From Streptomyces longispororuber (GTDB lineage Bacteria; Actinomycetota; Actinomycetes; Streptomycetales; Streptomycetaceae): a stretch of DNA of 64,000 nucleotides. The stretch is from positions 17,634 through 81,633 of the forward strand of contig NZ_JAMOLN010000014.1 of the NCBI RefSeq assembly GCF_024448165.1, in the 5' to 3' direction. Shown piece after piece: positions 5,102 through 55,422 of this stretch (position 1 is the stretch's first letter; every line of letters starts with the position of its first letter). The translations under genes and the position numbers were made by a program. The notes beneath the pieces were generated by a model. That model was not told where the DNA came from, searched no databases, and worked only from the letters and a program-made list of their open reading frames with translations.

Positions 5102-7960
5102 TCAAGTAGGTGGGACGGGAGTCTCATTATGTGAGCGGAGGGCGGGCACGCCCGCGAACACCGGCTCGGCCGGACCCGTGGGCACGGGGAACTCTCCCGA
5201 GACGAGCGCGCGGCGCAGCCGGTACTCGTCGAGCGGCCCGGAGAACGCCATGCCCTGTCCGTGCGTGCATCCCATCGCCCGCAGCGCCACGACCTGTTCG
5301 GGCAGGTCCACGCCGTCGGCCACGGAGGTCAGCCCGAGGTCCCCGGCGATCCGCAGCAGCCCACTGGTGATCTTGTGGAGCCGGGCGGACTCGACGACGC
5401 CCTCGACGAGCGATCTGTCCAGTTTCAGTACGTCGACGGGGAGTCTGCGCAGCGCCGTGATGGCCGCATAGCCGCTGCCGAATCCGTCCAGCGCGATCCG
5501 GACACCGAGTCGGCGCAGCGCCGTCAGCCGCCGCTCCAGCTCCTCCAGGGGCACTCTGGGATCGCTGTCCGCGAGCTCGATGATCAGCGCGCCCGACGGC
5601 AGCCCGTGCCGGGTGAGCAGCGCTTCGATCGAGCCGAGCGGCATGGCGCGGTCGAGGAGTCTGCGGGCGCTCATCCGGACGGCGACCGGCGTCGCGTGCC
5701 CGCTGTGCCCCCGCTCCGCGGCCTGCTCGACGGCCTCCTCCAGCATCCAGCGCCCCAGCTCCGCGGTGCGCTCGCTGTCCTCGGCCACGCGCAGGAACTC
5801 GGCGGGGGTGAAGAGGATGCCCTGCGCCGAACGCCATCGGGCCTGCGCGGCGACCGCCGTGATCCGGCCGTCGTCGAGCGACACGATCGGCTGGTGGAGC
5901 AGGGCGAACTCGCCGTCGTGCAGCGCGGACCGCAGCCGCGTGGCGAGCTCCGCCTTCCGTACGACATCGGCCTGCATCTGCGGCGCGTACAGCTCGACCC
6001 GGCCCTTGCCCGCCGCCTTGGCGCGGTACATCGCCAGGTCCGCGTTGCGCAGCAGCTCGCCGGCCGTGACGTCGGTCTCGGCGAAGGCGACCCCGATGGA
6101 GGCCGCGACGCGCACGTCGTCGTGCCCGTCGATCGAGTAGGGCTGGGACAGGGTGACGCGGAGCCGGTCGGCCAGCTCGTAGATGTGCTGCTCCCTGGCG
6201 GTGTGATCCCTGCCGCCGTCTCCGACGATCAGTGCCGCGAACTCGTCACCGCCGAGACGAGCCGCGGTGTCTCCGGAACGTACGGAGTCGGCCAGCCTTC
6301 TTGCCGCCTGCACGAGCAGTTCGTCGCCCGCCTGGTGGCCGATCGTGTCGTTGACCTGCTTGAAGCCGTCGAGGTCGATGAAGAGCACGGCGGTGCCGTG
6401 ATCGGTGGCCCGCCGTCCGGTGAGGGCCTGGCTGACCCGCTTGGTGAACAGGGCCCGGTTGGGCAGGTCGGTGAGCGGGTCGTGCTCGGCGTTGTGCTGC
6501 AACTGCGCCTGGAGGCGCACCCGTTCGGTGACGTCTCTGCTGTTGAGGATCAGGCCGCCGTGGTGGCGGTTGATCGTGGACTCCACGTTCAGCCAGGCTC
6601 CGGTGCCGGACCGGAAGCGGCACTCGATGCGGGTGGTGGGCTCCTCGATCTGGCTCGCGGCGAGGAATCTGCGCACCTCGTGCACCACGCGCCCGAGGTC
6701 CTCGGGGTGGATGATCGACGCGAGCTCGGACCCGACGAGCTCCTCCGCCTCGCGCCCGTAGACCCCTGCGGCGGCCGGGCTGACGTACCTCAGGATCCCG
6801 TTCGGCGCGGCGATCATGATGACGTCGCTCGAACCCTGCACGAGCGAGCGGAAGTGGTTCTCCTTCTGCGCCAGCTCCTGGGTGAGCGTGATGTTGTCGA
6901 GAAGCATGATGCCCTGGCGCACCACGAGGGCGAGCACGACCGTGCAGGCCGTGAAGAGCACGACCCGGTCGACGCTGTGGCCGTTCAGGACGTTGTAGAG
7001 AATCCCCAACGTGCAGACGGCCGCGGCCAGATACGGCGTGAGCGCGGCCAGCGATCCGGAGATGGGCCGCGTGTAACTGACCTGATAGCGACCGCCCGGC
7101 CCCTTGGGCGGCTCCTCGTGCCGCACCCCGTGCCGCGGGCCCACCCAGGGCGCGTACGCGAGCAGCAGCGACCCGGCGAACCAGCCCGCGTCGAGGATCT
7201 CCCCCGAGCGGTAACTGGCGTGCAGCAGGGGCGAGGTGAACAGGGCGTCGCACATGACGGTCAGCGCGAGGGCGCCGATCGCGGTGTTCACCGCCGTGCG
7301 GTTGCCGGGCGAGCGGCGGAAGTGCAGCGCGAGGACCATGCTGACGAGGGCGATGTCCAGCAGCGGGTACGCGAGGGAGAGCGCGGTGCGGGTGACGCTC
7401 TGCCCCTCGAACTCGGCGGTGTGCGCGAGGGCGAGGCTCCAGGAGAGGGTGATCAGCGATCCGGCGATGAGCCAGGCGTCGAGCGCGAGGCAGATCCAGC
7501 CGGCCTTCGTCACGGGCCGCTTGGCGAGGACCAGCAGGCCGATGATCGCGGGTGGTGCGAAGCAGAGGAAGAACAGGTCGGCGAGGCTCGGGCTGGGCAC
7601 CGGCAGGCGCAGCACCACCTCGTACCAGCCCCACACCCCGTTACCGAGCGCTGCCATGAGGGAGGAGAGCGCGAACAGGAGCCAGGCGGGTCGAAAGCGG
7701 CTGCGGCTGCTCCGGGCGAACAGGAAGTTCGACACGGCGGCGACGAAGGCCGCGACGCTGAGGCCGAAGTCGCCCATGAACAGGGCGAGTTCCTCGGAAC
7801 CCCAGCCGAGCGCCGATCCCGTGGCATACCCCGTGCACAGCAGGGCGAGCACCACCTGGGTCCCCATGCCGCCACCGCGCCCCTGCGCGCGCATCGACAA
7901 CGGGCCGCCGGGGTGCAGCGCGGCACCCAGCGCGGTGCCCGGCGGCGGGTGGGCGGTCAC
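5102..7960 (-). CDS. Membrane PAS-GGDEF-degenerate EAL protein (probable diguanylate cyclase)
   Basis: A c-di-GMP signalling protein of about 952 residues. Residues about 30-350 hold eight to ten hydrophobic helices, a MASE-like sensor region. A PAS domain starts near residue 368 (NHFRSLVQGSSDVIMI). The GGDEF domain has RLGGDEFAAL near residue 569 and an intact inhibitory I-site, RSGD, five residues before it. The EAL-like domain starts near residue 683 and is eroded: EAL is replaced by AQA, the DDFG motif reads LDGFG, and the NVS and EGVE motifs are lost. This suggests a cyclase with a non-catalytic EAL domain. The frame stays open to an ATG at 8149, but the extra 63 residues are low-complexity and lack a ribosome site. 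The GTG at 7960 has GAGG at good spacing. It is the positional counterpart of S. coelicolor SCO5511, from memory. Confidence 0.88.
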   Translation of the reverse strand: MTAHPPPGTALGAALHPGGPLSMRAQGRGGGMGTQVVLALLCTGYATGSALGWGSEELALFMGDFGLSVAAFVAAVSNFLFARSSRSRFRPAWLLFALSSLMAALGNGVWGWYEVVLRLPVPSPSLADLFFLCFAPPAIIGLLVLAKRPVTKAGWICLALDAWLIAGSLITLSWSLALAHTAEFEGQSVTRTALSLAYPLLDIALVSMVLALHFRRSPGNRTAVNTAIGALALTVMCDALFTSPLLHASYRSGEILDAGWFAGSLLLAYAPWVGPRHGVRHEEPPKGPGGRYQVSYTRPISGSLAALTPYLAAAVCTLGILYNVLNGHSVDRVVLFTACTVVLALVVRQGIMLLDNITLTQELAQKENHFRSLVQGSSDVIMIAAPNGILRYVSPAAAGVYGREAEELVGSELASIIHPEDLGRVVHEVRRFLAASQIEEPTTRIECRFRSGTGAWLNVESTINRHHGGLILNSRDVTERVRLQAQLQHNAEHDPLTDLPNRALFTKRVSQALTGRRATDHGTAVLFIDLDGFKQVNDTIGHQAGDELLVQAARRLADSVRSGDTAARLGGDEFAALIVGDGGRDHTAREQHIYELADRLRVTLSQPYSIDGHDDVRVAASIGVAFAETDVTAGELLRNADLAMYRAKAAGKGRVELYAPQMQADVVRKAELATRLRSALHDGEFALLHQPIVSLDDGRITAVAAQARWRSAQGILFTPAEFLRVAEDSERTAELGRWMLEEAVEQAAERGHSGHATPVAVRMSARRLLDRAMPLGSIEALLTRHGLPSGALIIELADSDPRVPLEELERRLTALRRLGVRIALDGFGSGYAAITALRRLPVDVLKLDRSLVEGVVESARLHKITSGLLRIAGDLGLTSVADGVDLPEQVVALRAMGCTHGQGMAFSGPLDEYRLRRALVSGEFPVPTGPAEPVFAGVPALRSHNETPVPPT

Positions 7961-17004: not shown

Positions 17005-19225
17005 CAGGCTCCTTCGCCAGCAGATCGTCCAGCTCGGCGACGGTGCCGCGCTGTCCCGGGATCCTCGCATCCGCGGCGGCCCGGCACTCCGGCGGCTCGA
17101 TGCTGAGGCGGGGCAGGCGCCGGTCGAGCCACTTGGGCAGCCACCAGTTGGCGCCGCCGAGCAGGTGCATCAGGGCCGGCACCAGGAGCGTCCGCAGGAT
17201 GAACGCGTCGACGGCGACGGCGACCGCGAGCGCGATGCCGAACATCGCGATCACCCGGTCCCCGCTGAGCACGAAGGCCAGGAAGACCGAGATCATGATC
17301 ACGGCGGCCGAGTTGATCACGCGGCTGGTCTCGGCGAGCCCGACCCGCACGGCCCGCCGGTTGTCGCCGGTCTCCAGCCACTCCTCGTACATCCGGCTCA
17401 CCAGGAACACCTGATAGTCCATGGAGAGCCCGAACAGGACCGACACCATGATCACGGGCAGGAAGGGTTCGATGGGCCCCGAGCGGCCGAGCCCGAGCAG
17501 TTCGCTCCCCCAGCCCCACTGGAAGATCGCGACGACGACGCCGAAGGCGGCGGCGACGGCGGCGATGTTCATCGCGGCGGCCTTGAGCGGGATGCCGATC
17601 GAGCGGAAGGCGAGGAGCAGCAGGAGGCAGCCGAGTCCGACCACGACGCCCACGAACAGGGGCAGCTTGCCGACGATGACCTCGGCGAAGTCGTCGTAGC
17701 TGGCGGTGACGCCGCCGATCTGCGCGTCGAGTCCGGAGTCCGGGACGACGTCCGTGCGCAGCCGGTCGACGAGCGCGCTGGTCTGCTCGGACTGCGGGGC
17801 GGAGGTCGGGACGACGGTGAGGTAGGCGGTGCTGTCGTCGGCGTTGTAGGTGATCGGGGAGACGGAGGCGACGCCGTCGGTGGTCCGCAGGGCGCCGGTC
17901 AGCTCGGTCAGGGCGGCCTTGTCCTGGGCGCCGTCGACCTCGGTGACGAGGGTGAGCGGCCCGTTCACGCCGGGTCCGAAGCCGTCGGCCAGCAGGTCGT
18001 AGGCCTGCCGGGTGGTGGCCGACTTCGGGTTGTTGCCCTGGTCGGAGGTGCCCAGGTGCAGCGACATCATCGGCAGCGCGAGGACCGTGATCACGGCGAG
18101 GGCGATGCCGCCGAGGAGCTTGGGGTGGCGCTCGACGAAGGCGGCCCAGCGGGCGGCGAGCCCGGTGGGCAGCTCCGGCTCGGGCCCGTGCTCGGCGAGC
18201 CGGCGCCGCTCGCGCCGCGACAGGGCGCGCATCCCGATGAACGAGAGCAGGCCGGGCAGCAGCGTCACCGACGCGGCGACGGTGAGCAGCACGGTCACGG
18301 AGGCGGCGATGGCGACCCCGTTGAGGAAGCTGAGCCGGAGGATGAGCATGCCGAGGAGGGCGATGCAGACGGTGGCGCCCGCGAAGACGACGGCGCGGCC
18401 GGTGGTGGCGACCGCCCGTTCGGCGGCGACCGCCACCGGCAGTCCGCGCTTGAGGCCCTTGCGGTGCCGGGTCACGATGAACAGCGCGTAGTCGATGCCG
18501 ACACCCAGCCCGACGAGCATGCCGAGCATCGGCGCGAAGTCCGCGACGGTCATGGCGTGTCCGAGCAGCACGATGCCCGCGTACGCGGTGCCGACGCTGA
18601 CCAGTGCGGTGGCGATGGGCAGCGCGGCCGCCGCGAGGGAGCCGAAGGCGAGGAACAGGACGACGGCCGCGACGACGACGCCGACGATCTCCGAGGTGTG
18701 CGCGGACGTCGACTCGGTGAGCGCGACGGCGCTGCCGCCGAGCTCGACCTGCAGCCCGTCCGGGCCGTGGTTCTCGGCGTCGAGCGCCGTGTCCACGACG
18801 GCCCTGGCCTGGTCCTTCGGGATGTCGTCGGCCTGCTGGTCGAAGGTGACCGTGGCGTACGCGGTGTGGCCGTCGGCGCTGATCTGGGCGGCGCCGGCCG
18901 CCTCGTACGGGGAGCCGACCGACGAGACGCCCGGCAGCTTGCCGATCTCGTCCACCGCGTTGCTCATGGTGGTCTCGACGTCGGCGGCGCGCACCGTGGA
19001 GCCGTCGATGTGCCAGACGACGGTGTCGCTGTCGCCGCCGAGGCCGTGGAAGCCCTCGTCCAGGAGCTGGGTGGCGCGGCCGGACTCGGTGCCGGGTGCC
19101 TCGTAGTCGTTCGAGTACGCGGACCCGGCGACCGCGGCCGCCGCGCTGGTCCCGCCGAGGGCGAGCAGCCACAGCAGAACGACGACGAGCCGATGACTGA
19201 CACACCAGCGTGCGAGTGCGGCCAC
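16982..19225 (-). CDS. MMPL/RND-family transporter
   Basis: Integral membrane exporter of 747 residues with two repeats of the RND layout. One helix comes first, then an extracytoplasmic loop (about 40-200), five helices, a cytoplasmic link, one helix, a second loop (about 390-520) and five helices. The proton-relay Asp-Tyr pairs of the MMPL family are visible as GVGIDYALFIVTRHR and LSMDYQVFLVSRMYEE. Relatives export lipids, siderophores or drugs; the substrate here is unknown. Start GTG at 19225 with GGGAG upstream. The last 22 bp overlap the acetyltransferase gene, suggesting a two-gene operon. No linked TetR regulator is adjacent. Confidence 0.92.
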   Translation of the reverse strand: MAALARWCVSHRLVVVLLWLLALGGTSAAAAVAGSAYSNDYEAPGTESGRATQLLDEGFHGLGGDSDTVVWHIDGSTVRAADVETTMSNAVDEIGKLPGVSSVGSPYEAAGAAQISADGHTAYATVTFDQQADDIPKDQARAVVDTALDAENHGPDGLQVELGGSAVALTESTSAHTSEIVGVVVAAVVLFLAFGSLAAAALPIATALVSVGTAYAGIVLLGHAMTVADFAPMLGMLVGLGVGIDYALFIVTRHRKGLKRGLPVAVAAERAVATTGRAVVFAGATVCIALLGMLILRLSFLNGVAIAASVTVLLTVAASVTLLPGLLSFIGMRALSRRERRRLAEHGPEPELPTGLAARWAAFVERHPKLLGGIALAVITVLALPMMSLHLGTSDQGNNPKSATTRQAYDLLADGFGPGVNGPLTLVTEVDGAQDKAALTELTGALRTTDGVASVSPITYNADDSTAYLTVVPTSAPQSEQTSALVDRLRTDVVPDSGLDAQIGGVTASYDDFAEVIVGKLPLFVGVVVGLGCLLLLLAFRSIGIPLKAAAMNIAAVAAAFGVVVAIFQWGWGSELLGLGRSGPIEPFLPVIMVSVLFGLSMDYQVFLVSRMYEEWLETGDNRRAVRVGLAETSRVINSAAVIMISVFLAFVLSGDRVIAMFGIALAVAVAVDAFILRTLLVPALMHLLGGANWWLPKWLDRRLPRLSIEPPECRAAADARIPGQRGTVAELDDLLAKEPDVRDIPG

Positions 19226-19379
19226 GGACGTGCTCCCTGGGTGTTTCGTGGATCTTTATCGGGAACAGTCGGTGATCGCCTGAACAGCCCGCAAAGAACA
19301 CATGAGCAATGGCCAGACACTCTTGCAGTCAGACGTGATCGTTTGTCGCTTTCGTGCGCTTACTCACACGAGGCGTCGG

Positions 19380-21464
19380 TCAGCCCGAGACGCTGGGCCG
19401 TCCGTTCTCGATGTGCCCCATGAGCCGCCGGTACGGGCCGTCCGTTCCGTCCGGGCCGGCCGTGGCGACCTCGACGTCGTACCAGCCGTGCTCCTTGCCC
19501 GCGTCGTGCACGACGGTCACCGTCCGCCCGGCCCGCACGGTGACGGTCCGCTTCCCCACGGTGAACGTCCGTGCCGTGTCCCCCGTGGCGCGCAGCCGGA
19601 TCCGGAGCGCACGGGCCCGCGCGTCCACGGTGGTCGTGACGTCGGCCCCGGCGTCCACCCGGCCCCGGAACTCGCGCCGGAAGCCGTTCGGCCCGGTCAC
19701 CACGAAGTCGTAGGCGCCGTCCCGGACGGGCACGGCCACGGCCGCCTCCCGTACGACGTCGACGTGGAGCGGCGCCGTGAACTCGCCCGCGTACGGGTAG
19801 AGCGCGAAGTGCGCGCTGGAGCGGCCGGAGTTGTCGAGGTGCAGCGTCAGCTTCCCGTCGGCCGTCCGCACCCAGGCGTCCGGCTGGTACGGCAGCGGGC
19901 GGGCGGGCCTGCTGCCGGGCTCCTGCTCGGGCATCGTCTGGTTCAGGGGCGGCTGCGGGGCCCAGCGGCCGCTGAACTCCGGGACCGGGCCCGGCTGCTC
20001 GACGGAGGGCCGGCGCGCTGCGTGCTTGAAGTCGAAGGCGCCGGTGAGGTCGCCGGTGACCTGGCGGCGCCACGCCCCGATGTTGGGCTCGCGCACCCCG
20101 GTCCACTGCTCCAGGAAGCGGATCACCGAGGTGTGGTCGAAGACCTCCGAGCACACGTAGCCGCCCACGGTCCACGGCGAGACGACCAGCATCGGCACCC
20201 GCACGCCGAGCCCGGTGGGCAGGCCCTTCCAGTGCTCCTCGGTCACGTCGGCGCCCGGCACCGGCGGCGGCACGTGGTCGAAGAAGCCGTCGTTCTCGTC
20301 GTAGTTGATGAAGACGGCGGTCCTGCGCCACACGTCGGGGTGCGAGGCGAGGGCGTCGAGGACCTTGTAGACGATGGTCGCGCTGTGGATCGGCGACGAC
20401 ACGGAGGGGTGCTCGGAGTCGACGGCGGACGGCACGAGGTAGGAGACGCGGGGCAGCTTCCCGGCGGCGACGTCGGCCGCGAAGGTCTCGGCGAGCTTCC
20501 CGGTGGGCACGCGGCGCAGCGCGCGCTCGAACAGCGACCGCTCGCTCTTGGTGAGCGTGGCGACGCCCTTGTCGAGGCCGGCCAGCAGCGTCGCGCGCTC
20601 GGCGTCGTCCTTGGCGTCGCGGACCTTCGCGTAGAAGGCCTCCATGTAGGTGAGGCCGGTCCCGGCGAGGACCTTCTTCGCGATCGCCTTGAAGGTGGTG
20701 AAGAACTCGATCTGGTTGTCGGTGAAGTTCTCCCACTCGGTGTACGTCCGCCAGCTCACGCCGGCCTTCTCCAGGCGCTCGGCGTACGTGCCCCAGTCGT
20801 AGCCGGGGTGGGTGCCCTCGTCGTACGCGTCGTTGCCGACGGCCCGGTTGCCGTTCGCCTCGTAGCCGGTCTTGCCGCTCCACAGGTGGTTGCGGTTGGG
20901 GCTGGTGGAGGAGTGGATCGAGGAGTGGTAGGCGTCGCAGACCGTGAAGGTGTCGGCGAGCTCGTAGTGCAGGGGGATGTCCTCGCGCGTGTAGTACGCC
21001 ATGGTGGCCGCGGTCTTCGCGGTGATCCACCCGTCGTGCCAGCCGTCGTGCCAGGCCTTGGCGCCGCCGGACCACGAGTGGTCGAGGGCGCCGATGTACT
21101 GGAGGTCCTTCTTCTGCGTCGCGGCGGCCTCGCGGACCGGGAACGGCAGGACGGTGCGCAGCGCGCCCGGCTGCTCCAGAACGCTCTTGCCGCTGGGCAG
21201 CCGGATCGCGTTGCGGTCGCCGAAGCCGCGCACGCCGCGCAGGGTGCCGAAGTAGTGGTCGAAGGACCGGTTCTCCTGCATCAGGATGACGACGTGCTCG
21301 ACGGCGTCGAGGCCGCCGCGGGGCGGCGCCCCCGCCTCGGCCTGTGCGGCGAGGGCCTGTTGGAGGGAGGGCGGCAGGAACGACCCGACGGCGGCGACGC
21401 CGAGCGCGCCTCCTCCGACGGCCATCAGGCGTCTGCGGGACAACTCCGGGGACTCCGGGGACAC
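19380..21464 (-). CDS. Tat-exported phosphocholine-specific phospholipase C
   Basis: Secreted enzyme of 694 residues that would hydrolyse phosphatidylcholine or sphingomyelin-type lipids. The N-terminus carries a twin-arginine signal, ELSRRRLMAVGGGALGVAAV, so it is likely folded before export. The phosphoesterase family hallmark VEHVVILMQENRSFDHYFGT follows at about residue 55. Further motifs are DHSWSGGAKAWHDGW, YDENDGFFDHVPPP and VSPWTVGGYVCSEVFDHTS. The last 200 residues form two beta-rich domains of the type found in bacterial non-haemolytic and haemolytic PLCs. The GTG start has GGAGG six bases upstream. It is monocistronic and may serve phosphate scavenging, though no PHO box was recognised. 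Confidence 0.93.
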   Translation of the reverse strand: MSPESPELSRRRLMAVGGGALGVAAVGSFLPPSLQQALAAQAEAGAPPRGGLDAVEHVVILMQENRSFDHYFGTLRGVRGFGDRNAIRLPSGKSVLEQPGALRTVLPFPVREAAATQKKDLQYIGALDHSWSGGAKAWHDGWHDGWITAKTAATMAYYTREDIPLHYELADTFTVCDAYHSSIHSSTSPNRNHLWSGKTGYEANGNRAVGNDAYDEGTHPGYDWGTYAERLEKAGVSWRTYTEWENFTDNQIEFFTTFKAIAKKVLAGTGLTYMEAFYAKVRDAKDDAERATLLAGLDKGVATLTKSERSLFERALRRVPTGKLAETFAADVAAGKLPRVSYLVPSAVDSEHPSVSSPIHSATIVYKVLDALASHPDVWRRTAVFINYDENDGFFDHVPPPVPGADVTEEHWKGLPTGLGVRVPMLVVSPWTVGGYVCSEVFDHTSVIRFLEQWTGVREPNIGAWRRQVTGDLTGAFDFKHAARRPSVEQPGPVPEFSGRWAPQPPLNQTMPEQEPGSRPARPLPYQPDAWVRTADGKLTLHLDNSGRSSAHFALYPYAGEFTAPLHVDVVREAAVAVPVRDGAYDFVVTGPNGFRREFRGRVDAGADVTTTVDARARALRIRLRATGDTARTFTVGKRTVTVRAGRTVTVVHDAGKEHGWYDVEVATAGPDGTDGPYRRLMGHIENGRPSVSG

Positions 21465-35061: not shown

Positions 35062-35445
35062 GTGACACAGGGACCGGGGTACGGGCACCAGGGCGGCGCG
35101 CCGGGCGGTTTCGGCGCGCCGCCTCCCATGTTCCAGCCGGTGCCGGTGCCCGTGGCGTCACCAGGGACGGGGCCGGAGTTCGTGGCGGCGGACCAGTACA
35201 ACGGGCTGGTCGTCGACGCCGACGGCGTCCACCTCGAACAGGGCCCGCACGCCATCGACCTGCCCTGGGCCCGCCTCCGCACGGTCCAGTTCCAGCCGCT
35301 GGACGCCGGGGTGAGCGTCACCGCGGTGACGGTGGACGGCCCGGTCTACACGTGCGCGGTGCGGGCCCGCCGCCGCTCCCAGGCCCGGACGTGGTGCGCC
35401 GAGCTCCCCCCGGTCCTCGCCCACTACTTGCGGGGCCGCGCCTGA
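35062..35445 (+). CDS. Conserved hypothetical protein with Pro/Gly-rich N-terminus
   Basis: A 127-residue protein. Residues 1-40 are Gly/Pro-rich (GPGYGHQGGAPGGFGAPPPM). Residues 45-127 form a compact beta-rich domain: NGLVVDADGVHLEQGPHAI, DLPWARLRTVQFQ, then VSVTAVTVDGPVYTCAV. The last looks like a PH-like or regulatory beta-sandwich, but no named family was recognised. The GTG start has AAGGAG 12 bases upstream. It follows the DUF427 gene by 57 bp on the same strand, so the pair may be one transcript. No signal peptide. Confidence 0.75.
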   Translation: MTQGPGYGHQGGAPGGFGAPPPMFQPVPVPVASPGTGPEFVAADQYNGLVVDADGVHLEQGPHAIDLPWARLRTVQFQPLDAGVSVTAVTVDGPVYTCAVRARRRSQARTWCAELPPVLAHYLRGRA

Positions 35446-35639: not shown

Positions 35640-35993
35640 GTGACCCCCGAGACCCCGCCCCCGCTCGACCGGGCGGCGTACATGGACCTGACGGACGATC
35701 CCGTCCAGCAACGCTTACTGCGCAAGGCGCTGGAGGTGTTCCGGCAGGGCGGGGGTGGCCCCGTCCTGAAGGAACTGGCCCAGGAGGTGCTGGCCGGGCG
35801 GGTGGGGTTAAGAGAGGCCACCCGTATTCCTGCATATGCGGAGGCGGTCCTCGACCAGGGCCACGAGTTCCGCACGCGGTGGGATTCGATGCCGGACTCC
35901 GAACGGGAGGCGCTCGCGCGTGACGGCGAGCGGCAGGTGGCGGAGGAGCGGGCGCGTATGGATGCGGAGCGTGTGGGGCGGGGGCGGTTGTGA
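35640..35993 (+). CDS. Small helical protein with two TTA codons, partner of the type VII-like substrate
   Basis: A 117-residue, mostly helical, charged protein: AAYMDLTDDPVQQRLLRKA, LEVFRQGGGGPVLKELAQEV, FRTRWDSMPDSEREALARDG. The GTG start at 35640 has GAGGAGA seven bases upstream. The stop overlaps the next gene as GTGA, so the two are translationally coupled. This is the arrangement usual for WXG-type substrates and a small partner or chaperone; that role is inferred. Two leucines are encoded by TTA (35715-35717 and 35808-35810), the codon read by the bldA tRNA, so full translation should depend on development. No family assigned. Confidence 0.75.
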   Translation: MTPETPPPLDRAAYMDLTDDPVQQRLLRKALEVFRQGGGGPVLKELAQEVLAGRVGLREATRIPAYAEAVLDQGHEFRTRWDSMPDSEREALARDGERQVAEERARMDAERVGRGRL

Positions 35994-37111
35994 CGCTGAC
36001 TGTGAGGTCGGACGACCTGGTCGGATACGCAGACCTGGTGCGCCGGGCAAGCGAGGACAGCGGGAGCGCAGGCGCGTATCTGGCCCGCAGCACCGGCATC
36101 GAAGCTTCGGCAACTGCACCTCTCTGGGACAAGGTGCTGGGGCACCACGAGGAGCAGGTACGAGACGCCCGCAACCTCCTGAGCCGCTTCGGCACGATCC
36201 TTCAGGCGTCGAAGAGCGAACTGAAGAAGACCGCCGCCTGGTACGACTCGATGGACCTCGACACGGCCAGAAAGCTGGACGCCACCTACCCGTCCGGGCA
36301 TTCCTCCGCCCCGGTTCCCCGTGTCGTGCCCCACGGCGCCACCTCGTTCCGCGATGTGCGCGATACCGTCAGCCGACTCAAACCCCCCGGAGGGGCGGAC
36401 AGCTGGCTGCAAGGACATCTGGCAGAAGCCGCATTTGCCCCCGCCAACAAGGGGGTCGGCACCCTGCTTGATTTCGGCAGCCCATCGGCCCTGGTCAACG
36501 AAGGCCTCAAACTTGCTTTCGGATGGGACATTCTGGGCTATTTCGCCAATCTCTTCGGAGGTGACTGGCAGAACTACGCAGGATGCGCCGATGCCTGGAA
36601 ATGCCTTGGCGACGCCTGTGCCGACATGGCCGAGAACATCCGGCACGGAAACGGCGTGCTGAGTACCACGTGGCGCGGAAATGCTGCAGAGGCCGCAGGG
36701 AAGTACTTCGACAACATCGCCAAGAAGCTCGATGCTGCGCGCGACGCCTTTTACGATCTGCGTGACCTCTACAAGAGAGTGGCCACGATGGTCTACTCGG
36801 TCGCCGAAACGGCCAAAGGGGTCCTGGCAGAGGTTTGCGACGAGGGCGTGCAGGCCGCCGTGGCAGCCGCGGCTTCGACTGCCATGGCGGCATCGGGAGT
36901 CGGGTTCACCGGAGCGTTCGTGGGCGCGGCATTCGCCGCGCAGCGTGTGGCCTCCATGGTCGCGAAGTACAAGAGTCTCGTGGAAAAGTACGAGCACCTC
37001 ATGCAGGCAGTCAACGCGGCTTTCGCCGCGGGCGGATTCATCTGCTCCGTCAGCAAGGACGTGCGGGACTTCCCGGTCGTTGGCAAGAGTTACGACAACG
37101 CACTCGTCTAG
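35990..37111 (+). CDS. WXG100/EspC-like protein, putative type VII secretion substrate
   Basis: A 373-residue protein with three parts. Residues 1-90 are an EspC-like helical hairpin (DDLVGYADLVRRASEDSG, SKSELKKTAAWYDSMD) ending in YDSMD at 85-89, which fits the YxxxD/E export motif of ESX substrates. A second helical hairpin at about 185-255 carries the WXG turn in LSTTWRGNAAEAAGKYF (218-220). Residues 258-300 are Ala/Gly-rich and hydrophobic (STAMAASGVGFTGAFVGAAF) and could insert in a membrane. No nuclease or deaminase motif is visible at the C-terminus. Codon use is less G/C-biased than in the flanks. The secretion apparatus is not in the window. Confidence 0.75.
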   Translation: MTLTVRSDDLVGYADLVRRASEDSGSAGAYLARSTGIEASATAPLWDKVLGHHEEQVRDARNLLSRFGTILQASKSELKKTAAWYDSMDLDTARKLDATYPSGHSSAPVPRVVPHGATSFRDVRDTVSRLKPPGGADSWLQGHLAEAAFAPANKGVGTLLDFGSPSALVNEGLKLAFGWDILGYFANLFGGDWQNYAGCADAWKCLGDACADMAENIRHGNGVLSTTWRGNAAEAAGKYFDNIAKKLDAARDAFYDLRDLYKRVATMVYSVAETAKGVLAEVCDEGVQAAVAAAASTAMAASGVGFTGAFVGAAFAAQRVASMVAKYKSLVEKYEHLMQAVNAAFAAGGFICSVSKDVRDFPVVGKSYDNALV

Positions 37112-37138
37112 TCACCGATCGAGAAGCAAGGAATTCAC

Positions 37139-37423
37139 GTGGAACTCGGGCAGCGGAACCGCCCCAGAACACAGGCGGAAAGAGTTCAGGAGAAGGTGGC
37201 GTTCCTGACTGCCATGCTGTGCGCGCTTGCGACAGGGAATCTGATGGTGGATCTCTGGAAAGGGATGTTCTCCCTTGCCTGGTTCGCCGCCGATCTCGTC
37301 TTGATCTGCAACGGGTTCATCGCATTCCAGGGCTGGCGAAAGAAGCGCTTCCCACTTACCGCCATCGCCGTAGTCGTGCTGCTCGGGTTGGCAGGCGTGA
37401 GCCGTCTGTTCATGTCTGCGTGA
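37139..37423 (+). CDS. Small membrane protein (QGWRKK type), first copy
   Basis: A 94-residue protein with three hydrophobic stretches: VAFLTAMLCALATGNLMVDL, FAADLVLICNGFIAFQGW and LTAIAVVVLLGLAGVSRLF. It is likely a three-helix membrane protein with the basic loop WRKKRFP inside. The GTG start at 37139 has AAGGA seven bases upstream and lies 27 bp after the WXG-like gene. It shares the pattern hydrophobic helix-QGWR(K/R)K-helix with the next gene. Unknown function; an immunity role is only a guess from position. Confidence 0.68.
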   Translation: MELGQRNRPRTQAERVQEKVAFLTAMLCALATGNLMVDLWKGMFSLAWFAADLVLICNGFIAFQGWRKKRFPLTAIAVVVLLGLAGVSRLFMSA

Positions 37424-37451
37424 CCACCCGGCAGTCACGTTCCATTCCGCC

Positions 37452-37748
37452 ATGAGAGATCAGATGAACTTAGAACATCCCATGCCCAGTGAGGCAGAAT
37501 TTCACCACAGCCAGCGCATTATCACTGCCTGGGTGAGCGTCTTCACCGCCGTCTGTGGGTACGTGACGGTGCCCCGGGCACTGCGCGGCGTCATCACCTG
37601 GCCCCTGATCGGCCTCCAACTGGTCCTGCTCTACGGCCTCTGCCTGGCTGTCCAGGGGTGGCGGCGCAAACAGCCCATGCCGTCGTGTGCCGCACTGCTG
37701 GTGGTGCCGGGCATGCTGTTGGCCGCGTGCCTCTTGAAGTTCACGTAA
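37452..37748 (+). CDS. Small membrane protein (QGWRRK type), second copy with TTA codon
   Basis: A 98-residue protein with helices at about 24-42 (ITAWVSVFTAVCGYVTV), 50-67 (PLIGLQLVLLYGLCLAV) and 79-95 (AALLVVPGMLLAACLL). The second is followed by QGWRRKQP, matching QGWRKKR in the preceding protein, so the two look like diverged duplicates. Starts at 37452 or 37464 are both ATG. The third codon after the second ATG is TTA (37470-37472), a bldA-type codon. The gene ends 4 bp before the convergent mnmA stop. Confidence 0.68.
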   Translation: MRDQMNLEHPMPSEAEFHHSQRIITAWVSVFTAVCGYVTVPRALRGVITWPLIGLQLVLLYGLCLAVQGWRRKQPMPSCAALLVVPGMLLAACLLKFT

Positions 37749-37752
37749 GCCG

Positions 37753-38889
37753 TCAGACCCCCGCCGCCACCCGCTCCGTAGTCGCAATGGTCGCCGACCC
37801 CACCACACGCGTCCCGTCGTACAGGACGATCGCCTGGCCCGGTGCCACGCCCCGGGCCGGCTCCGTGAAGTGGACGTGGAGTTCGTTGTTCAGGAGGTCC
37901 GCGGTGACTTCCGTCTCGCCGCCGTGGGCGCGCAGCTGGGCCGTGTACGTGCCGGGGCCCGAGGGGGGCGTGCCGCACCAGCGGGGCTTGATCGCTGTCA
38001 GGGACGTGACGTCCAGGGAAGTGGCGGGGCCCACCGTCACCGTGTTGTTCACCGGGGAGATGTCCAGGACGTAGCGCGGCTTGCCGTCCGCCGCGGGGGT
38101 GCCGATGCGCAGGCCCTTGCGCTGGCCGATCGTGTAGCCGTAGGCGCCCTCGTGGGTGCCGAGCTTGGTGCCCTGCTCGTCGACGATGTCGCCCTCGGAC
38201 TTGCCGAGGCGGGCCGCGAGGAAGCCCTGGGTGTCGCCGTCGGCGATGAAGCAGATGTCGTGGGAGTCGGGCTTCTTGGCGACCGCGAGGCCACGCCGCT
38301 CCGCCTCCGCGCGGATCTCCTCCTTCGTCGTCTCCGTGTCGCCCAGCGGGAACATCGCGTGGGCGAGCTGCCGGTCGTCCAGGACGCCGAGGACGTACGA
38401 CTGGTCCTTGGCCATGTCGGAGGCCCGGTGCAGCTCGCGCTCGCCGGACTCGGTGAGGATCACCTGCGCGTAGTGGCCGGTGCAGACCGCGTCGAAGCCG
38501 AGGGCCAGGGCCTTGTCCAGGAGCGCGGCGAACTTGATCTTCTCGTTGCAGCGCAGGCACGGGTTCGGCGTACGGCCGGCCTCGTACTCGGCGACGAAGT
38601 CCTCGACGACGTCCTCGCGGAAGCGGTCGGCCAGGTCCCACACGTAGAAGGGGATGCCGATGACGTCCGCCGCGCGGCGCGCGTCGCGGGAGTCCTCGAT
38701 GGTGCAACAGCCGCGGGCGCCGGTGCGGAAGGACTGCGGGTTCGCCGAGAGGGCCAGGTGGACGCCGGTCACGTCGTGGCCCGCTTCCGCGGCGCGGGCC
38801 GCCGCCACGGCGGAGTCGACGCCTCCCGACATGGCGGCGAGGACGCGGAGGGGGCGGTCGGCGGGGAGCATCGAGGTCTGCGAAGTCAT
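37753..38889 (-). CDS. mnmA: tRNA-specific 2-thiouridylase
   Basis: Thiolates U34 of tRNA(Lys/Glu/Gln) using ATP and a sulfur relay. It has 378 residues. The PP-loop ATP-binding motif is [16 protein letters not shown] near the N-terminus. The first catalytic Cys lies in [19 protein letters not shown], the second in [11 protein letters not shown]. The C-terminal domain is a beta barrel ending WCGTPP...[24 protein letters not shown] at 38889 is chosen; a further in-frame ATG ([10 protein letters not shown]) lies six codons later. The open frame continues 30 codons upstream but overlaps the divergent promoter. A cysteine desulfurase that could supply sulfur is encoded 800 bp away on the same strand. 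Confidence 0.96.
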
Positions 38890-54558: not shown

Positions 54559-55422
54559 TCAGTACGACGCGCCGTACGGCGGCGGATACCCGTAGCCCCC
54601 GCCGGCCTGCCCCGCGGGAGCGACGTGCGCCTCGCGGTCGTAGAACGGCCGCGCGTTCGCGCGCAGCCACATCGCGACCGGGTCGTACTCGTCGGACATC
54701 GCGACGGTGGACACCGGCAGCCCGTCCGGCACCGAGGAGATCGACTGCTGCATCATCGCGCGGACCGCGTCCACCGACGCCGGGGACGTGTCGTACACGT
54801 CGAGGCCGATGGCCAGGTACGGGGCGCCGAGCGTCGGCTGCACCCAGGCCCGGCGCAGCGAGCGGACCGCCGTCGTGCGGTGCGCGTTCTGCGCGAGCAC
54901 CGCGTAGAACTGGGGGATCTCGATGGTCGGCTCGGAGAGCCGGAGCGGTCCCGCGGGCTGTCGGTCCAGGCCGCCCGCGATGCGCCGCAGGTCCAGCCAG
55001 GGCACACCGACTCCCCCGCCGGGCGCGTGCGGGTTCAGCCAGAGGCCGTAGTGGTCGGGGTAGAGCGTGCGGGCCGCGTCGACGCCGCCGACCACCTCGT
55101 AGGCACGGGACCAGCCGGAGGCGGAGAGCTCCTGGGCGGAGGTGACGCAGGGGGCGTACGAGAAGCCGTCCACATCCATGTTCCCGTACTGGGCGTCCGG
55201 GGAGCCGGCCTGGCCGTGCCAGAGCAGCATCCAGACCTGGCCCGACGCGGGGTCGGCGAGGGCCTTGAGGAGCGCCTCGTACGCGTCGTAGCGCCCGGGG
55301 GTCACCTGGCGCAGCATGTGCTCGACCTGTCCGGCCGCGGCCGTGCCCGACGCACTCACCCGTAACCGCCCCTTCGTGAACTGCTGCCAGTCCGTGTTTC
55401 GCCAGTTCGCCCGATCGTCCAT
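54559..55422 (-). CDS. SseB-like protein (enhanced serine sensitivity family), first copy
   Basis: A 287-residue soluble protein. The N-terminal half resembles the SseB N-terminal domain (FSYAPCVTSAQELSASGWSR, then VGGVDAARTLYPDHYGLWLN). The second half is the SseB C-terminal domain with LSEPTIEIPQFYAVLAQNAH, SLRRAWVQPTLGAPYLAIGL and AMWLRANARPFYDRE. A Gly/Tyr/Pro tail ends the protein. E. coli SseB affects serine sensitivity by an unknown route, and related domains occur in type VII-associated proteins. ATG at 55422 or a GTG one codon earlier. It shares layout with the next gene, suggesting tandem duplication. Confidence 0.82.
   Translation of the reverse strand: MDDRANWRNTDWQQFTKGRLRVSASGTAAAGQVEHMLRQVTPGRYDAYEALLKALADPASGQVWMLLWHGQAGSPDAQYGNMDVDGFSYAPCVTSAQELSASGWSRAYEVVGGVDAARTLYPDHYGLWLNPHAPGGGVGVPWLDLRRIAGGLDRQPAGPLRLSEPTIEIPQFYAVLAQNAHRTTAVRSLRRAWVQPTLGAPYLAIGLDVYDTSPASVDAVRAMMQQSISSVPDGLPVSTVAMSDEYDPVAMWLRANARPFYDREAHVAPAGQAGGGYGYPPPYGASY

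Follow-up and report, generated by a model that had tools for sequence, protein, structure and literature searches.

Streptomyces genes that depend on the bldA tRNA, of which adpA is the type case, carry an in-frame TTA codon that is decoded by tRNA-Leu(UAA) and kept across species, and streptomycete TTA codons are biased towards gene starts (available part of PMC4255298). According to the portion of PMC10327506 at hand, TTA codons are mostly poorly conserved, 92% of TTA-containing Streptomyces genes have a single one, and these genes are enriched in transcription, signalling, and secondary metabolism. Two described groups of type VII secretion substrates are also close to the present case: EspB of ESX-1, a fused PE-PPE protein that combines YxxxD and WxG motifs with a helical paperclip-like fold in a single polypeptide and has a chaperone partner (PMC9811218, in part), and the type VIIb LXG toxins, whose Lap helpers are small helical proteins encoded directly upstream, with protective genes nearby (PMC10765036, in part). 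Features of all of these are found in a four-gene island (p117, pW, pm1, and pm2, in this order) at positions 35640–37748 of a 64,000-nucleotide stretch, hereafter the window, that represents bases 17634–81633 of contig 46 in the 10.5-Mb genome of Streptomyces longispororuber. We consider it an evenly balanced proposition that the island is a predicted ESX substrate operon in which p117, through its TTA codons, and pW, through its coupling to p117, would depend on the bldA tRNA. The genome possesses the gene for tRNA-Leu(UAA), a premise of the earlier sequence-only reading of this DNA, in contig 68 (one match, with two mismatches, to a bldA-like pattern, confirmed by ARAGORN).

The close relatives of the island come from two sources. 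GTDB r220, scanned with a single genome for each species, gave two loci, VRA16 (L032) and SID14478 (L033), and 392 genomes from the same genus, when searched, added G103 as the third; a match to pW at E 1e-60 or better was present in 27 of the latter. The features of the island, all on the plus strand, are as follows.

35640–35993, plus strand: p117, the first gene, GTG start, 117 residues, predicted all-helical protein
35715–35717, plus strand: TTA, Leu26 of p117; TTA lies at the adjacent codon, Leu27, in the three other orthologues
35808–35810, plus strand: TTA, Leu57 of p117; also TTA in SID14478, CTG in VRA16 and G103
35990–35993, plus strand: GTGA, 4-nucleotide overlap of the p117 stop with the GTG start of pW
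35990–37111, plus strand: pW, 373 residues, EspB-like candidate type VII substrate
36242–36256, plus strand: YxxxD motif of pW, Tyr85 to Asp89
36671–36679, plus strand: WxG motif of pW, Trp228 to Gly230
37139–37423, plus strand: pm1, 94 residues, three predicted membrane segments
37464–37748, plus strand: pm2, 94 residues, three predicted membrane segments, start set by homology
37470–37472, plus strand: TTA, codon 3 of pm2 as counted from the start at 37464; ATC in VRA16 and SID14478

The p117 gene contains TTA in all four orthologues for which DNA was available (the window, VRA16, SID14478, and G103), where it makes up 6 of 43 leucine codons, whereas the pW genes of these genomes have no TTA among their 139 leucine codons. 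Leu27 is encoded by TTA in VRA16, SID14478, and G103, but in the window Leu27 is CTG and the preceding Leu26 is TTA, which is most simply read as a shift from Leu27 to Leu26 in the window's lineage. Within 13–18 kb around L032, L033, and the G103 locus, no called gene other than p117 contains a TTA. Distant p117 homologues have none (52 sequences with 503 aligned leucines), and distant pW homologues have one in 44 sequences and another in the fragment L014, these counts covering the aligned parts only. The 52- and 44-sequence tally is free of duplicates, while another TTA tally skipped the duplicate loci L002 and L034 and kept other duplicates. At the protein level, 20 close p117 proteins (P0001–P0020) were collected, 18 of which lie outside the DNA-level count of TTA; alignment A2 comprises all 21 proteins of the search that gave them, and alignment A1 comprises 20 of 24 protein matches, P0024, P0040, P0043, and P0045 being left out on account of a very short contig, length, partial sequence, or distance. 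Those close protein matches that carry a species or strain name are from Streptomyces, and the close p117 proteins include ones from Streptomyces sp. NPDC050400, S. kunmingensis, sp. Q6, and sp. cg35.

Within the window, the three TTA codons that the sequence-only reading had placed in the island are indeed in frame, two in p117 and one in pm2. That reading saw none in the genes it inspected elsewhere; the concentration in the island stands, but an additional open-frame TTA occurs at positions 55363–55365 of the minus strand, two codons upstream of the point where the conserved part of an SseB-like protein starts. The stretch upstream of this start contains a stop in 14 of 29 relatives, in 4 of them at exactly the TTA codon, and the conserved coding part that follows is present in all 29, so that this TTA belongs to the leader and was rejected as a coding one. 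Annotation of the SseB-like gene from its first start codon would make it a false TTA gene. The third TTA of the island, in pm2, had been counted into the same story; it is kept in neither of the two relatives compared, both having ATC there, and is thus outside the conserved pattern. The start of pm2 at 37464 gives a protein of 94 residues, the length of the three relatives' proteins from VRA16 and SID14478.

TTA is rare in a larger sample of the same genome (1.264 Mb in 60 stretches plus the window): 14 of 35,066 leucine codons are TTA, spread over 12 of the 997 genes called, and these figures include those of p117 and the leader. The two TTA among the 12 leucine codons of p117 differ from the rest of the sample by a post hoc Fisher test (1e-5), and genes with a G+C content at third codon positions (GC3) of 0.80–0.90 have 3 TTA among 5,291 leucine codons, two of the three from p117. 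These counts are approximate because the home-made gene caller, in which TTA was scored neutral, tends to miss genes of atypical composition; pW and pm2 came out shortened and pm1 was not called, which leaves the pm2 TTA outside its counts. Elsewhere in the same genome, contig 25 (L167, 149–11511) has four TTA in three called genes within 11.4 kb.

Judged from its motifs, its genomic contexts, and a structural model, pW has the appearance of a substrate for type VII secretion. Both YxxxD and WxG, the bipartite signal of ESX substrates, are found in all 34 pW loci examined, a hand-picked set that includes the window's locus and in which some loci share a genome, and Tyr85 and Asp89 are invariant across 21 aligned pW proteins. 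Residues 200–318 resemble the WXG100_2 family (PF25547), which is matched by 18 of 21 members of the pW family at E 0.01, and EspC (PF10824) is weakly matched by 3 of 21. In structural comparison of the pW model, EspB ranks top, and a distant p117–pW pair in G680 sits within an ESX locus. The sequence-only reading of a type VII-like island with a WXG/EspC-like gene is therefore strengthened in its type VII link by the motifs, the structural comparison, and the G680 locus, while EspB-like describes the protein better than EspC-like. EccC is encoded elsewhere in the window's genome. The glycines at 303, 305, 308, and 312 of pW (positions 36896–36925) are invariant or nearly so and recall the glycine zipper with which the type VIIb toxin TelE inserts into membranes (PMC10765036, part of the paper), but the hydropathy of pW there is weak, and toxicity of pW is for this reason only a possibility.

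In the 34-locus set, p117 lies upstream of the pW homologue on the same strand at 30 loci, and a small membrane open reading frame directly follows pW at 27. The sequence-only reading took the TTA gene to be translationally coupled to the WXG-like gene; the two do overlap, by 4 nucleotides in the window (GTGA), the overlap recurring in two of the three other orthologues (ATGA in VRA16 and SID14478). Taken together, p117 is likely a helper (partner or chaperone) of pW, and p117, pW, and the membrane protein constitute a conserved helper–substrate–membrane-protein trio, the first gene of which is probably bldA-gated in one clade. This arrangement differs from that of adpA-type regulators in that p117 heads a predicted secretion-substrate operon, its TTA moves by one codon, and the TTA was observed in a single clade. 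It differs from EspB in that pW is without a sequence-level match to that protein and is accompanied by extra small membrane proteins, and from the LXG/Lap systems in having one helper instead of a pair and in occurring in Actinobacteria, LXG being weakly matched in one distant homologue only. As side observations, the pW homologues L059, L060, L063, and L089 (from G367, G233, G353, and G289) contain one in-frame stop each, as if decaying, and in G103 (L090, 6915–9377) two pW genes lie in tandem behind the p117 orthologue, with 35% and 56% identity to pW of the window, which suggests duplication of the putative substrate.

In the predicted mechanism, ribosomes would stall at UUA codon 26 or 27 while the charged bldA tRNA is scarce, leaving p117 unfinished, and pW, presumed to be started by ribosomes leaving p117, would stay low as well. 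When the bldA tRNA rises late in growth, p117 and pW would be made together; p117 may then bind pW as a helper prior to export, and pW would leave through an ESX machine whose genes lie at another place in the genome. The small membrane proteins may either tether pW or shield the producing cell from it. Selection acting on such a switch would hold some TTA early in p117, not one fixed site.

Several observations weigh against a bldA-dependent ESX substrate operon. UUA is readable to some extent even without bldA, the conservation of TTA rests on four p117 orthologues, and the p117–pW overlap is absent from G103. A neutral model of leucine codon change, fitted to 21 TTA-free leucine columns of the four genomes on an assumed tree (the fit is rough, with one branch at zero) and started from the window codons, gives P 0.06–0.10 for all three others keeping some TTA. 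On the side of secretion, pW of the window falls below the Pfam cut-offs, its 21.8 bits to WXG100_2 comparing with a gathering cut-off of 27 bits; its model has a mean predicted local distance difference test score (pLDDT) of 70, and high Z-scores may arise by chance for helical bundles. A profile search of PDB sequences with pW gave no EspB match up to E 1, and Foldseek gave none below E 0.001 (best 0.68, EspB 2.5). For p117, no fold match was obtained. The operon has no ESX genes beside it within the window, and a third, sub-cut-off EccC-like gene in contig 39 (L181, 8314–9798) shares a 20-kb stretch with two TTA genes. These two TTA genes of L181 are at 6969–7691 and 18619–19872.

The explanation that we find less probable than bldA dependence, yet still quite conceivable, is that the TTA codons date from an AT-richer source of the island and survive as relics that have no regulatory role and are kept only by the shared ancestry of the four genomes. 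The GC3 of the island (p117 0.85, pW 0.77, pm1 0.77, and pm2 0.82) is low relative to the other called genes of the window, mostly at 0.91–0.98, the neutral probability given above leaves room for simple retention, and more than 80% of the TTA genes of S. coelicolor are postulated to be horizontally acquired (PMC1934918, available part). However, pW with equally low GC3 is free of TTA, as are the 52 distant p117 homologues, many of which have a GC3 of 0.80–0.90. The looser codon use that the sequence-only reading had pointed to is likewise not supported as the cause of the TTA codons, because the pW genes of these genomes are equally loose and yet TTA-free. The p117 leucine codons, TTA sites included, agree at only 1 to 5 of 7–8 shared sites per pair, and the TTA occupies different neighbouring codons; under the neutral model, the probability that the three others all have TTA at a codon that is non-TTA in the window is 1e-4 to 5e-3, for a pattern chosen post hoc. 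The shifted position argues against neutral inheritance. Conservation of TTA alone is suggestive of selection, and the shifted position, together with the absence of TTA from pW and from the distant homologues, adds weight to that interpretation.

It is also unlikely, in our judgment, that pW is not exported at all and that the four genes form a cytoplasmic or membrane module sharing a WXG-like helical hairpin; the lack of an adjoining ESX gene in the window, the negative PDB-sequence and Foldseek results, and the moderate confidence of the model speak for this reading, but are set against the YxxxD and WxG motifs at all 34 loci, the top rank of EspB in the structural comparison, and the distant copy inside an ESX locus. 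A constant local pause at UUA, tuning p117 folding or coupling to pW and not acting as a developmental switch, fits the early TTA and the overlap in three of four orthologues but is quite improbable, as G103 retains TTA without the overlap, the 52 distant homologues have no TTA, and at the pair of adjacent leucines (Leu26 and Leu27) no other rare leucine codon replaces it in the four orthologues.

The history of the site bears on the age of the bldA-gated operon proposed here. The island is bounded by two genes.

35062–35445, plus strand: left neighbour, 127 residues; directly adjoins mnmA in G059
37753–38871, minus strand: mnmA, right neighbour of the island

In VRA16, SID14478, and G103, p117 and pW stand beside mnmA as in the window, with 56–75% identity of pW to that of the window, so that the recent acquisition proposed by the sequence-only reading is not supported and was rejected. 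SID14478 has one small membrane gene where the window has two, and G103 has one of 71 residues; the G103 locus has no match to the 127-residue neighbour. In G059 the two flanks adjoin each other, representing an island-free site. The 127-residue neighbour has a match in 69 of 121 genomes, exceeding 60% identity only in the window's genome and G059, and mnmA is matched in 109 of 111 genomes, with the island at 2 (window and G103) of the 30 mnmA loci fetched. Of three others of these loci that were read, L250 and L253 have a 259-residue gene left of mnmA and L247 a 316-residue gene. The mnmA site thus varies across the genus, being empty in G059 and filled with different genes in L247, L250, and L253. 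From these comparisons the island appears to have been gained or lost at about the time when the four species diverged, or earlier, with no recent event in the window's lineage.

Neither p117 sequences nor its comparisons added a known family: p117 has no Pfam or NCBIfam match, and its fold and structure comparisons turned up no match to EspK, which excludes nothing. The literature search found no work joining bldA or TTA codons with type VII secretion or WXG100 proteins in Streptomyces, apart from one paper in which WXG100 appears in the title of a reference only; it covered subscription journals thinly, and earlier work may exist. Publications dealing with Streptomyces development and Esx proteins exist, none of which was found in that search. 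As a tentative and rather doubtful extension, we speculate that a developmental tRNA times when an EspB-like type VII protein, self-assembling or membrane-active, is exported, only the helper gene of this protein being UUA-gated and the two main ESX loci of the genome being TTA-free; that the presence and not the position of the gate is conserved by selection; that pm1 and pm2 are immunity or docking partners; and that the trio is a type VII module of the genus that has so far gone without a name. If bldA dependence holds, a TTA gate maintained in the helper gene of a type VII substrate would link this secretion route to the developmental programme, it would turn the question of when Streptomyces employs type VII export into one with a testable answer, and it would represent a rare-codon switch whose position is mobile while its presence is retained.
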